Of a stretch of 33,635 nt of DNA, positions 19,418 through 33,635 are shown piece by piece (the stretch's first letter is position 1; the number at the start of each line of letters is the position of its first letter). The stretch is from Anaerolineae bacterium. Its GTDB lineage: Bacteria > Chloroflexota > Anaerolineae > UBA3071. The stretch lies in NCBI GenBank assembly GCA_029907105.1, contig JARYMM010000039.1:1-33635 (forward strand). Direction: 5' to 3'. The notes under the pieces are model-generated. The model did not search any database and was not told where the DNA came from. It worked only from the letters and a program-made list of their open reading frames with translations. The translations under genes and the position numbers were made by a program.

Positions 19418-19491
19418 CACCCCAGACAGGATTCGAACCTGTGGCCTCTTCCTCCGCAGGGAAGCGCTCTAATCCACTGAGCTACTGGGGC
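19418..19491 (-). tRNA. tRNA-Arg (anticodon GCG)
   Basis: 74-nt cloverleaf: acceptor GCCCCAG/CTGGGGT (with one G-U pair), D stem GCTC/GAGC, anticodon stem CTTCC/GGAAG with loop CTGCGGA, five-base variable loop, T arm ACAGG-TTCGAAT-CCTGT. The anticodon GCG is at 19455-19457. The 3' CCA is not encoded (CCT follows the discriminator G). Most bacteria read CGN with an A34 (inosine) tRNA, so G34 is unusual. Confidence 0.93.
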
Positions 19492-19493
19492 TC

Positions 19494-19589
<96 letters not shown>

Positions 19590-19593
19590 TCAT

Positions 19594-19642
19594 TAGCCGA
19601 TAGCTGATCGCTTATGGCCAATAGCGAATGGCTTGCGACTGC
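19594..19642. repeat. Heptad repeat between two tRNA-Ser genes
   Basis: TAGCCGA TAGCTGA TCGCTTA TGGCCAA TAGCGAA TGGCTTG CGACTGC: seven degenerate 7-bp units inside the tRNA operon spacer. Confidence 0.75.
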
Positions 19643-19665
19643 TCGTCATCTGCCATCTGCTGACC

Positions 19666-19755
<90 letters not shown>

Positions 19756-30383: not shown

Positions 30384-32072
30384 ATGATCGAAGTCGTGGA
30401 TCTCAATGTATCGTACGGAGAACACAAGGCCCTGGAAGACGTGTCCTTGCACGTGGAGGCGGGCGAATTCGTGTTGCTCACCGGGCCCTCGGGCTGCGGC
30501 AAGAGCACATTCGCTCGTTGCCTGGCCGGCCTGATCCCCCACGCGGCCACGGCGCAAACGGTGCGGATGTCCGGCTCGGTGCGCGTGGACGGCCTGCTGA
30601 CCGCAGAGCACGCTCTCCCGCAACTGGCGGCCCACGTCGGGCTGGTCTTCCAGAACCCGGCCACGCAGCTTTTCTGCCTGACGGTGGAGGAGGAGGTGGC
30701 CTTCGGCCCGCGCAACCTGGGGCTCTCGCCGGACGAGGTGGCCGCACGCGTCCGCTTCGCCCTGGCGGCGACAGGCATCGAACACCTGCGCCGGCGAACG
30801 GTGAATGCGCTCTCCACCGGCGAGCAGCAGCGGGTGGCCATCGCTGCCGTGCTGGCCATGCGCCCGCGCATCCTCGTCCTGGACGAGCCGACCTCCAACC
30901 TGGACCTGAAAGGCACGCGGGCGGTGCTGGACACGCTGGAGAGTTTGTGCCGCCAGTATGGCCTGACCGTGCTGGTCATCGAGCACCGGCTGCACGACCT
31001 GGGGCGGTTGGCCGACCGCCTGCTGGTGATGGACGGCGGGCGCATCATCGCCGACGACACGCCGCAGCATATCCTGGGGCAGAAGGAATTGCTGGCCCGG
31101 CTGGGCGTCCGCTACCCCTGGCATGTGCTGCAGGACGACTGGTCGGCGCTCCTGCCGGGAGGGCTGGTCCCGCGTCCTGGGAGCGACGAAGAGCCGCCGC
31201 TGGTAGCCTTGCAAAACGTCGAGGCCGGCTATGGCCGCCACGCTGTGCTGAAGGGACTTGATCTGGCCCTGTCACGGGGCGAGTTCGTGGCCCTGGTGGG
31301 CGACAACGGGGCGGGCAAGACGACGGTGGCCAGGGTGTTGGCCGGGTTGCTCAAGCCGCGGCGGGGCAAGGTCATCTGGAACGGTGACACCCGCGTGGGA
31401 TTGCTGCTGCAGAATCCCCTCAGCCAGCTCTTCTGCGACAGCGTGGAGGAGGAGGTGGCCTTCGGACCGCGCAATTTCGGGCATTTCTCAGCCGCATTGC
31501 TCGATGAAGTCCTGGAGATCGCCGATTTGCAGGAGCTGCGCACTCGCCGCCCTTATGCGCTCAGCAGTGGGCAGCAGCAGCGCACGGCGTTGGCCGCCGT
31601 CCTCTCCCTGATGCCAGAACAGCTTAGCAAACCACGAAAGCCCGTAGCGCCTCCCCACCCCCGTCAACGGGGGATAGGAGTCCGCCGTTCACCCGCTGGA
31701 CTTGGCAGTCCAGCGGGAGCACGTGATGGTTTGCTCATCCTTGACGAGCCAACCATGGGCCAGGATTGGCGACACCTGAGCGGCTTCATGGACTTCCTGA
31801 GCCAGCTCAACGGCCGGGGGATGACCATCCTGCTCATCACCCACGACTACAAGCTCATTTGCCGCTACGCGCGGCGCATCGTCGTGTTGCAGGATGGCCG
31901 CATCGTCGCCGACGGCACCCCGCGGCTGCCCCTCGCCGTCCCTGGCCAGCCTCCCATGGAAACCAATCTGCCGGTTTCCCAATCTACCGATCTCAGTGCA
32001 TCACAGTCTGCTCCTGGTGGATCCTTCACTTCGTTCAGGACAAGTTTGGCAATCCGCCGCGAACAACTGTGA
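30384..32072 (+). CDS. Fused double EcfA ATPase of an ECF transporter, with an in-frame palindromic insertion
   Basis: 562 residues containing two ABC ATPase domains. Domain 1: Walker A GPSGCGKST (34-42), Q90, signature LSTGEQQ (143-149), Walker B ILVLDEP (163-169), H201. Domain 2: Walker A GDNGAGKTT (306-314), Q343, signature LSSGQQQ (393-399), Walker B LLILDEP (450-456), H487. Both have the ECF-type Q-loop region QNPxxQLFC..VEEEVAFGPRN, so this is an EcfA-EcfA' fusion that powers vitamin or metal uptake with EcfT. Between signature and Walker B of domain 2 there are ~37 extra residues (about 413-449, rich in Pro, Arg and Gly) where domain 1 has one; this DNA is a palindromic element. The C-terminal ~45 residues are low-complexity and repeat-encoded. 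No Shine-Dalgarno sequence is visible. S and T genes follow. Confidence 0.95.
   Translation: MIEVVDLNVSYGEHKALEDVSLHVEAGEFVLLTGPSGCGKSTFARCLAGLIPHAATAQTVRMSGSVRVDGLLTAEHALPQLAAHVGLVFQNPATQLFCLTVEEEVAFGPRNLGLSPDEVAARVRFALAATGIEHLRRRTVNALSTGEQQRVAIAAVLAMRPRILVLDEPTSNLDLKGTRAVLDTLESLCRQYGLTVLVIEHRLHDLGRLADRLLVMDGGRIIADDTPQHILGQKELLARLGVRYPWHVLQDDWSALLPGGLVPRPGSDEEPPLVALQNVEAGYGRHAVLKGLDLALSRGEFVALVGDNGAGKTTVARVLAGLLKPRRGKVIWNGDTRVGLLLQNPLSQLFCDSVEEEVAFGPRNFGHFSAALLDEVLEIADLQELRTRRPYALSSGQQQRTALAAVLSLMPEQLSKPRKPVAPPHPRQRGIGVRRSPAGLGSPAGARDGLLILDEPTMGQDWRHLSGFMDFLSQLNGRGMTILLITHDYKLICRYARRIVVLQDGRIVADGTPRLPLAVPGQPPMETNLPVSQSTDLSASQSAPGGSFTSFRTSLAIRREQL
31620..31730 (+). mobile_element. In-frame palindromic element inside the EcfA gene
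   Basis: About 111 bp (37 codons, no stop). Outer arms AGCAAACCA (31626-31634) and TGGTTTGCT (31727-31735) enclose two hairpins: CCCCCGT/ACGGGGG (31658-31673) and the perfect 11-bp CCCGCTGGACT/AGTCCAGCGGG (31692-31717, loop TGGC). The exact ends are approximate. The insertion keeps the frame and all ATPase motifs. Confidence 0.8.
31963..31994. repeat. 8-bp period repeat at the EcfA 3' end
   Basis: CCAATCTG CCGGTTTC CCAATCTA CCGATCTC: four 8-bp units encoding part of the non-conserved C-terminal tail of EcfA. Confidence 0.7.
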
Positions 32073-32105
32073 TCACCTGGATCTACCAATCCACTGGAGA
32101 GAACC

Positions 32106-32711
32106 ATGACTAAACTCACCACACGCGACCTGACCACCATTGCCATTTTTGGCGCTATCTGGGGCGCACTGGAGATAACCCTGGGTTCGTACCTCCACGT
32201 TATCTTTCCGCCCCTGACCACGCCGCTGGTCGGAACTGGCACCATCATGACCGGCATCGGCATGATTATCGCCCTCATGGGCTATCTCTTTGTGCCCAAG
32301 ACCGGCGCGGTGCTGATGATCGGCGTGGTCACGGCCATCCTGAAGGCTCTCAGCATCGGCGGCGTCAAGCTCTCGCCCATGCTGGCCATCATCATCGAGT
32401 GCCTGTTGGCAGAAGCGGGGCTTGTGCTGGCCCGCAAGCCGAGCCGTTGGGGCTTCGTCCTGGCCGGTGCCCTGGCTGTGCTGTGGACCTTCTTCCATAA
32501 GTTCTTCGGCTCCTATGTCTTCCTGGGCCGGGCCATTACCGAGGTCTATCTGGGCATGCTCAAGCAGGGGTCGCAGGCTCTGGGCATTGACGTCAGCCTG
32601 GCCCTGGTCATCATCGCCGCGTTTCTGCTCATACGTATTGCCGTCGGTGCCGTGGCCGGCTGGCTGGCCTGGGAATTGGGCGGGGCGGTGCGCGGCCGGC
32701 TGGCCAGGTAG
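32106..32711 (+). CDS. ECF transporter S component (substrate-binding membrane protein)
   Basis: 201 residues, with GGAGAG about 5 nt before the ATG. Five or six membrane segments are visible (IAIFGAIWGALEITLGSYL, GTIMTGIGMIIALMGYLFV, GAVLMIGVVTAILKALSIGG, MLAIIIECLLAEAGLVLA, WGFVLAGALAVLWTFF, LALVIIAAFLLIRIAVGAVAGWLA). Helix 1 has the small-residue pattern A13-x3-A17-x3-A21, matching the AxxxA surface that S components use to dock onto EcfT. Size and layout fit the ECF S superfamily. I cannot assign the substrate: there is no BioY, ThiT, RibU or cobalt signature I trust. It lies between EcfA and EcfT in one transcription unit. Confidence 0.82.
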   Translation: MTKLTTRDLTTIAIFGAIWGALEITLGSYLHVIFPPLTTPLVGTGTIMTGIGMIIALMGYLFVPKTGAVLMIGVVTAILKALSIGGVKLSPMLAIIIECLLAEAGLVLARKPSRWGFVLAGALAVLWTFFHKFFGSYVFLGRAITEVYLGMLKQGSQALGIDVSLALVIIAAFLLIRIAVGAVAGWLAWELGGAVRGRLAR

Positions 32712-32754: not shown

Positions 32755-33477
32755 ATGCAGATGCGCAGGGAATGGACGCAGGCTGAACGACAGGTTCTCA
32801 GCGTGTGGGGATACCTGAGCTTTCTCGTCGGCGCGGTGGCGATGGCCATGCTTGCTCCTGGCTCCAGGGTGTTCGTCGTCTTGGGGCTGGTGGTGAGCTT
32901 CTGTGTGCTTTTCTGCACCGGCAGCCTGCGCCTCCTCCGCCATGCCCGGTTCTGGCTGCTCATCGCCCTGGCGCTGTTTCTGAGCCCTTTCTTCATCGGC
33001 GAGAAGGACGTGACCTTGTGGGGGCTGCGGCTGTCGCGGCAGGGCTTCTGGGCCGGCCTGTGGATGACGGGGCGGGCGTTGAGCATCGGGCTGGCCTTCA
33101 ACGGCTTCGCCCGCCGCGTCTCTGTGGCTGAGCTGGCCACGCTTCTGGAGGGCGTGGGGCTGAAGGGGTTAGGCTTCGCCCTGGGCGTGGCCTTCAACGC
33201 CCTGCCCATCATCCAGGAGGCCGCCGGTGATGCCTATACGGCTATGCGGCTGCGCGGCGGCTTCCGGCGTCAGCGCTTCGTTGCCCTGAAGAAATTGCTG
33301 GTGACCATCGTGGCCAGCTCGCTGCGGCGTGGCGAGGAGATCGTGGATGCGGCCGAGGCCCGCGCCTTCGACCCGGCGCGGGCGCAGGGCCGGTTGGCCC
33401 GGCCTACCCGTGCCGACCTGCTGCTGGCTTTTGCCTTGCTTTGTTGCAACCTGGCGATCCTGCTTCCGCCATATTGA
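32755..33477 (+). CDS. ecfT: EcfT transmembrane component of an ECF transporter
   Basis: 240 residues. Four or more membrane segments precede the cytoplasmic coupling region. The EcfT family landmarks are present: LPIIQEAAGDAYTAMRLRGGFRR and, ~45 residues later, SSLRRGEEIVDAAEARAFD. The latter contains the Ala-Arg-x coupling motif that inserts into the EcfA grooves. Length is near the family's usual ~250. With the fused EcfA and the S component upstream it completes a dedicated (group I-like) ECF importer. It starts 43 bp after the S gene, across an 8-bp repeat. Confidence 0.92.
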   Translation: MQMRREWTQAERQVLSVWGYLSFLVGAVAMAMLAPGSRVFVVLGLVVSFCVLFCTGSLRLLRHARFWLLIALALFLSPFFIGEKDVTLWGLRLSRQGFWAGLWMTGRALSIGLAFNGFARRVSVAELATLLEGVGLKGLGFALGVAFNALPIIQEAAGDAYTAMRLRGGFRRQRFVALKKLLVTIVASSLRRGEEIVDAAEARAFDPARAQGRLARPTRADLLLAFALLCCNLAILLPPY

Positions 33478-33635
33478 TGTCTGTGCAGTTAACCCAGGAA
33501 GCTCTGCACCGTCACGCCGTTTTTACCGCTGAGAAGGGTGCATTTCAGTTTTTTGGAAATGTCATTGCGAGCCGAAGGTGAAGCAATCTCCTGCCAGCTA
33601 GTGGGAGATTGCCCTTCGGCAAAGCTCAGGGCAGG
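33478..33635. repeat. Intergenic tail with palindromic element copy 3 (truncated by window end)
   Basis: No gene is seen. From ~33560 on, TGTCATTGCGAGCC..GAAGCAATCTCC and the reverse-oriented GGGAGATTGCCCTTCGGCAAAG form an imperfect palindrome of the same family as 18674-18757 and 19294-19360. Confidence 0.65.

Follow-up and report, generated by a model that had tools for sequence, protein, structure and literature searches.

An in-frame palindromic insert in the fused EcfA gene of an Anaerolineae bacterium is very probably a diverged copy of a dispersed, MITE-like 91-bp element

Introduction

Palindromic elements that lie in frame within protein genes are best known from Rickettsiales. As described in the available part of one review, the Rickettsia palindromic elements (RPEs) are palindromes of 105-146 bp fused in frame into protein genes, and a guanylate kinase bearing such an element is still active with a changed substrate affinity (PMC2229807). 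A table in that review puts a question mark against the RPE target duplication, and the same excerpt describes other miniature inverted-repeat transposable elements (MITEs) with readable frames fused to host genes, namely the 107-bp form of Correia, ERIC and YPAL (PMC2229807). According to the portion of a second article available to us, in-frame palindromic elements occur in Rickettsiales at an unusually high frequency, how far they contribute to new proteins is still unexplored, and the same process is conceivable outside that order (PMC10969869). REP elements are described, again in an excerpt, as hairpins tagged by GTAG/CGTC (PMC3733652).

The locus described here lies in a stretch of 33,635 nucleotides (the window) from the genome of an Anaerolineae bacterium of the phylum Chloroflexota. 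A preliminary description, made from the letters of the window, had reported a palindromic segment inside an ABC ATPase domain of a fused EcfA and had likened it to RPEs. We find that the segment is very probably one diverged member of a palindromic 91-bp family that is dispersed in the genome and bounded by terminal repeats; it likely moved as a MITE and adds a predicted loop of 37 residues to the protein. The proposed parallel fits the review descriptions as far as these were available (PMC2229807, PMC10969869): RPEs and the Wolbachia palindromic elements, in the excerpts describing them, share with the 91-bp family a palindrome of about 100-150 bp, an occurrence both intergenic and in frame, and a tolerated peptide (PMC2229807, PMC10969869, PMC3767692). 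In-frame insertion into protein genes, a property of RPEs, was seen for the 91-bp family in ecfA and in genes for a xanthine-dehydrogenase-like enzyme, an MTA/SAH nucleosidase-like protein, an nSTAND1 protein and an S9 peptidase. Unlike RPEs, the family belongs to another phylum, is GC-rich and has 12-bp terminal repeats, a reproducible 5-bp ANNNT duplication and nested hairpins. By analogy, then, it seems to work like RPEs but is a MITE-like family of Chloroflexota defined by its terminal inverted repeats and target duplications, the likeness being one of described features. With the 107-bp Correia form, ERIC and YPAL, as partially described in the review, it shares short length, target duplications and frames fused to host genes (PMC2229807); it is set apart from them, on these descriptions, by its hosts, its hairpins nested in hairpin loops and a canonical footprint of 96 bp.

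Results

The insert in domain 2 of EcfA

An ECF-type transporter operon lies at the end of the window, on the plus strand, with the fused EcfA ORF at 30384..32072 (562 codons plus stop; two ABC ATPase domains matched by Pfam ABC_tran in two stretches; EcfA/CbiO among the best PDB matches), an ABC_cobalt-family membrane protein (PF09819) as the next gene at 32106..32711, and a CbiQ/EcfT-family membrane protein (PF02361) at 32794..33474, the last coordinates being those of the stretch scanned and not of a gene start. The ecfA start at ATG 30384 was picked by homology, a longer frame from 30021 also being listed, and there is no internal stop between this ATG and 32069. In domain 2 both the signature motif, LSSGQQQR (31560..31583), and the Walker B segment, LLILDEPT (31731..31754), are intact in the translation, and immediately 5' of the latter the alignment of the window with 120 homologues defines a net in-frame insert of 111 bp, or 37 codons, at 31620..31730 (plus strand). 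The limits are exactly those of the preliminary description, which had placed the segment between the signature helix and Walker B; its statements that the length is a multiple of three with no stop, and that domain 1 has a single residue at the equivalent point, were likewise borne out. Elsewhere in the window three tRNA genes, two with long variable arms, are clustered on the minus strand at 19418-19755, and further inverted-repeat-like sequence, presumably of a type present in many genomes, is found at the window end (33560-33635; GTCATTGCGAGC...GAAGCAATCTC / GGGAGATTGCCC).

The preliminary description had proposed an alignment of homologues, with a loop in all of them as the counter-case. 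Of 2594 homologues found at E 1e-80, 120 were listed, and 119 of these 120 have one residue at the insertion point, against 38 in the window protein and in P0001, the only listed homologue with the insert, which it carries in frame. P0001 is a diverged protein listed under another source, identical to the window protein at 32/37 residues in the insert and at 453/493 (92%) elsewhere, a difference that was not significant (Fisher p 0.23). In the next nearest proteins, P0002 and P0003 (identity 78-80%), the site is empty and reads P-E-LLILDEPT. A search for EcfA in 60 genomes, source included, gave matches in 28; of 29 loci, 13 yielded no ORF by our filter, and among the 16 ORFs four were in the wrong frame and one had no domain 2, leaving 11 usable, and the insert was absent in all 11 relatives with an alignable domain 2. 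Among 25 named loci encoding an EcfA relative, 19 were titled Chloroflexi/Chloroflexota, Anaerolineae, Anaerolineales or Ardenticatenia.

The segment had been described as two perfect hairpins between 9-bp outer inverted repeats. The outer repeats, AGCAAACCA (31626..31634) and TGGTTTGCT (31727..31735), are indeed perfect, as is the 11-bp stem of the second hairpin (31692..31717), which is common to the dispersed family; the first, GC-rich hairpin (31651..31680) is perfect in its core only (CCCCCGTCAACGGGGG, 31658-31673), its longer arms being 79% complementary. This first hairpin resembles a nested CACCCCCGTCNACGGGGGATAGG-like hairpin that is also present in a family copy with a perfect AGACT duplication (C38:68141-68255). 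Rfam at the gathering threshold gave no match in the insert and three tRNAs only in the rest of the window; below the threshold there were four matches, the best being whalefall-1 with 19.3 bits, short of its cut-off of 37.

An AlphaFold model, together with structure comparison, showed both ABC domains modelled like tandem ABC ATPases and the insert disordered, with residues 418-444 falling below pLDDT 50 and the helix before them and the strand after them both modelled confidently. According to this model, the 37 added residues would be a disordered, floppy loop preceding Walker B of domain 2.

The dispersed 91-bp family

A BLAST search of the insert against its own genome gave 71 matches, mostly to the second hairpin. 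Many of these matches, seen in their context, are part of an element whose canonical form is 91 bp long and carries CAGTAGATCACA at one terminus and the reverse complement of that sequence at the opposite terminus, enclosing two hairpins; 13 aligned copies have 12-bp terminal inverted repeats. These 13 clean copies, which include two taken from other genomes, were used to build a covariance model (R1; 33 pairs); they were chosen for clean ends, which biases the model toward terminal repeats, whereas the duplication counts below take in all merged hits. In the source genome R1 gave 142 rows, reduced to 99 places by strand merging and removal of matches with E > 1e-3, which is likely a lower bound because 150 of 4907 first-look candidates were scored. 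The genome search suggested in the preliminary description thus returned many further copies, several of which lie within other genes and keep the frame. At E 1e-4, R1 matched 21 of 150 genomes (source included; the others of the same family or class). Searched against 19 named loci of EcfA relatives, the model found no copy, its sole match being the window.

An exact 5-bp target duplication flanks 22 of 97 testable places, compared with 6 of 5238 at 54 outward shifts, and has the form ANNNT in 20 of the 22; exact duplications of any other length between 2 and 9 bp occurred at 0-7 places per length. The 22 copies are 86-137 bp long. In its shortness without a transposase gene, its terminal repeats and its target duplication, the family shows three features of MITEs. 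The mobile unit seems to be set by its ends, since a 244-bp element (G000:C61:11675-11918; L260:176-419) shares the terminal repeats and has a perfect duplication, AACTT, around an unrelated interior. Longer copies of 113-137 bp (L068, L071, L073, L075, L094) hold a second, GTCCTGAACGAAGTGAAGGA-like palindrome inside a hairpin loop, and it appears from them that one repeat inserts into another. A tandem array of ~21-bp units, each half of the second hairpin (GGCAGTCCAGCGGGAGCACTT), runs up to a contig end (G000:C104:14762-14933; L003).

No autonomous partner with the family's ends was found among matches to the transposase family PF01609 or among terminal-repeat pairs. PF01609 had no match in the source genome; in nine other genomes it had 21 matches, in six of them, none within a correctly oriented pair of terminal repeats. 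No kilobase-scale terminal-repeat pair with a matching duplication was seen, nor any kilobase-scale pair of exact repeats in eight other genomes. In the PMC open library, as far as titles and the first lines of abstracts tell, no article on the 91-bp family was found, and none in that library combined Anaerolineae with miniature inverted-repeat transposable elements.

Two copies in ecfA

The ecfA insert matches the whole 91-position model at 31625..31736 on the plus strand (cmsearch E 3.6e-10 in the genome, 1.5e-11 over 20 sources). Its ends are uncertain by ~5 bp, the covariance model giving 31625-31736 and pairwise alignment 31620-31733, and its terminal repeats are atypical and degenerate. 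There is no target duplication at the model ends, where CAGCT and ATCCT are found; ATCCT, an ANNNT pentamer, was considered as the target site, but it fits the right flank only and no duplication can be assigned. With neither a duplication nor typical terminal repeats, this copy's own insertion event is not readable from its ends. From these divergent ends and the missing duplication we infer that the copy is old, its ends and duplication having eroded.

A second family copy of 86 bp, on the minus strand, lies 257 bp downstream at 31994..32079 (cmsearch E 4.2e-5 in the genome). It has terminal repeats and the target duplication GATCT on its left (31989..31993) and right (32080..32084), and it supplies the last codons of ecfA together with the stop codon, TGA at 32070..32072. 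The C-terminus of P0001 differs after METNLP and is without the tail encoded by the second copy; judged from the sequences, the second copy likely inserted after the P0001 lineage had split off.

Copies in frame in other genes

At the 97 other places we found 58 open frames that read through an element and extend 40 codons or more to either side of it, several frames at some places. Thirty of the 58 were scanned with Pfam, of which 12 matched and 18 without a match were left uncounted; five of the 12 were counted as intragenic and seven were uncounted or rejected. Most of the 99 places stand outside the count. A TIR-nSTAND1 NTPase (C48) carries a 91-bp copy with a 4/5 duplication, and its net addition relative to P0122 (77% identical) is the 32 codons, or 96 bp, expected from 91 + 5. 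The copy (L173) lies 14 residues ahead of the strand LLIVDQ, presumably Walker B; the ecfA copy lies directly ahead of Walker B. Loop length at such sites can vary, as seen among the nSTAND1 relatives. In the xanthine-dehydrogenase-like enzyme (C68) the copy lies between two domains, and the segment is absent in 8 of 9 aligned relatives; in the MTA/SAH nucleosidase-like protein (C67) the element peptide is absent in all six aligned relatives; and the S9 peptidase (C41) has 45 excess residues around the element relative to 5l8s. A DUF2298 protein (C120), with its copy in a naturally length-variable loop, is a less clear case as regards net gain. The element has one orientation and reading frame, giving the peptide AGxGxPAxA, in ecfA and in the nSTAND1, xanthine-dehydrogenase-like and nucleosidase genes; the S9 peptidase uses another frame, and the DUF2298 gene the other strand.

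The xanthine-dehydrogenase-like loop holds the element in the source genome (G000) and, in a genome of the same family (G001; L285), an insert of unrelated sequence in which a G(Q)xQGLPLPQDIE-like peptide recurs; this suggests that the loop is insertion-tolerant.

Three candidates were kept out of the intragenic count: PfkB (C53) and the isopropylmalate dehydratase small subunit (C78:81433), whose PDB matches start only after the element, and HisRS (C115), whose Pfam match does so. PMT_2 (C38, C22), a methyltransferase (C51) and C78:84592 (RVT_1/FGE-sulfatase) were likewise left uncounted, their domain matches being one-sided or not followed up.

The 22 duplication-bearing copies have 60 of 132 frames open, against a mean of 41.9 for mononucleotide shuffles (0/500 shuffles as high), an excess that is weak because the copies are related and palindromic. 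In 11 of the 22 the length plus 5 is divisible by three, which is explained by the shared 91-bp ancestor.

Discussion

The route by which ecfA may have acquired its insert can be outlined as follows. A transposase acting in trans would have recognised the terminal repeats of the 91-bp element, and non-autonomous movement would insert the element with a 5-bp duplication. Because 91 + 5 = 96 bp, or 32 codons, such an insertion would keep the frame wherever the frame read through the element has no stop. In ecfA the insert would be translated as a disordered loop and tolerated since that loop lies outside the ATP-binding core; the low-pLDDT loop of the AlphaFold model and the retention of the insert in P0001 point the same way. 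Later, the second copy would have inserted at the 3' end of ecfA and given the gene its new C-terminal end. The suggestions in the preliminary description that the repeat family can spread into ORFs, and that the insert forms a tolerated surface loop, agree with the in-frame copies in several other genes and with the model, respectively. The terminal inverted repeats, the 5-bp duplications, the nested hairpins and the second copy at the 3' end of ecfA go beyond that description.

Among other explanations, the hairpins could owe their retention to a role in RNA, be it pausing of translation, mRNA processing or a function like that of a terminator, and the peptide would then be a by-product. The predicted fold of the insert is stable (-57.7 kcal/mol against a shuffle mean of -42.1; z -4.0, 0/200 shuffles as good), changes on both sides that keep the pair occur at 8 of the 33 pairs of R1 across its 13 copies, and some copies lie just upstream of genes, such as those for the PfkB-family kinase and the isopropylmalate dehydratase small subunit. 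The palindromes of a transposable element, however, can be explained without an RNA function, and the ecfA copy is deep within a coding region; we regard this explanation as unlikely. An ordinary lineage-specific loop, palindromic by chance and unrelated to a mobile element, is still harder to sustain. The eroded ends of the ecfA copy, its missing duplication and the length variation at comparable places in nSTAND1 relatives would suit such a loop, but the segment matches the whole element model at the E-value given above, its second hairpin is common to dozens of loci, and it resembles the nested hairpin of a copy with a perfect duplication.

That ecfA is a decaying pseudogene, with domain 2 inactivated by the insert, might be suspected from the replacement of its C-terminal end by a second copy, but no stop interrupts the frame, domain 2 has retained its signature and Walker B motifs, and in P0001 the insert is again in frame within an otherwise conserved protein, so that we find decay scarcely credible. 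No more credible is a REP-type palindrome. REP palindromes are moved by the RAYT (TnpA-REP) transposase, and the 91-bp family is like REP/BIME in its small, GC-rich, paired hairpins, its high copy number and its occasional clustering, as in the tandem array at C104. It differs in its terminal inverted repeats, its clear 5-bp duplications and its in-frame insertion; REP elements are not known to duplicate their target, and to our knowledge neither terminal inverted repeats nor such duplications are expected of them. An assembly artefact, conceivable in a contig of a draft genome (133 contigs, 92.7% complete), is refuted by the same insert in P0001, a diverged protein under another source, and its probability is negligible.

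The preferred reading is thus of a diverged copy of the 91-bp element, and proteins appear to gain new loops from an element that is likely mobile. A bolder proposal, which we put forward tentatively and consider doubtful, is that the element is a protein-compatible transposon, whose 96-bp (32-codon) footprint and stop-poor frames are shaped for spread in the coding genes of Anaerolineae-type Chloroflexota and which repeatedly donates disordered loops shortly before Walker B of P-loop NTPases (EcfA and, presumably, TIR-nSTAND1). If that were true, it would provide a measurable source of new protein segments outside Rickettsiales. With its clear duplication, its empty and filled sites and its several host proteins, such a family in a far-removed phylum would open three matters to test: the choice of loops that take up the element, selection on the added peptide, and any shaping of the element toward readability.
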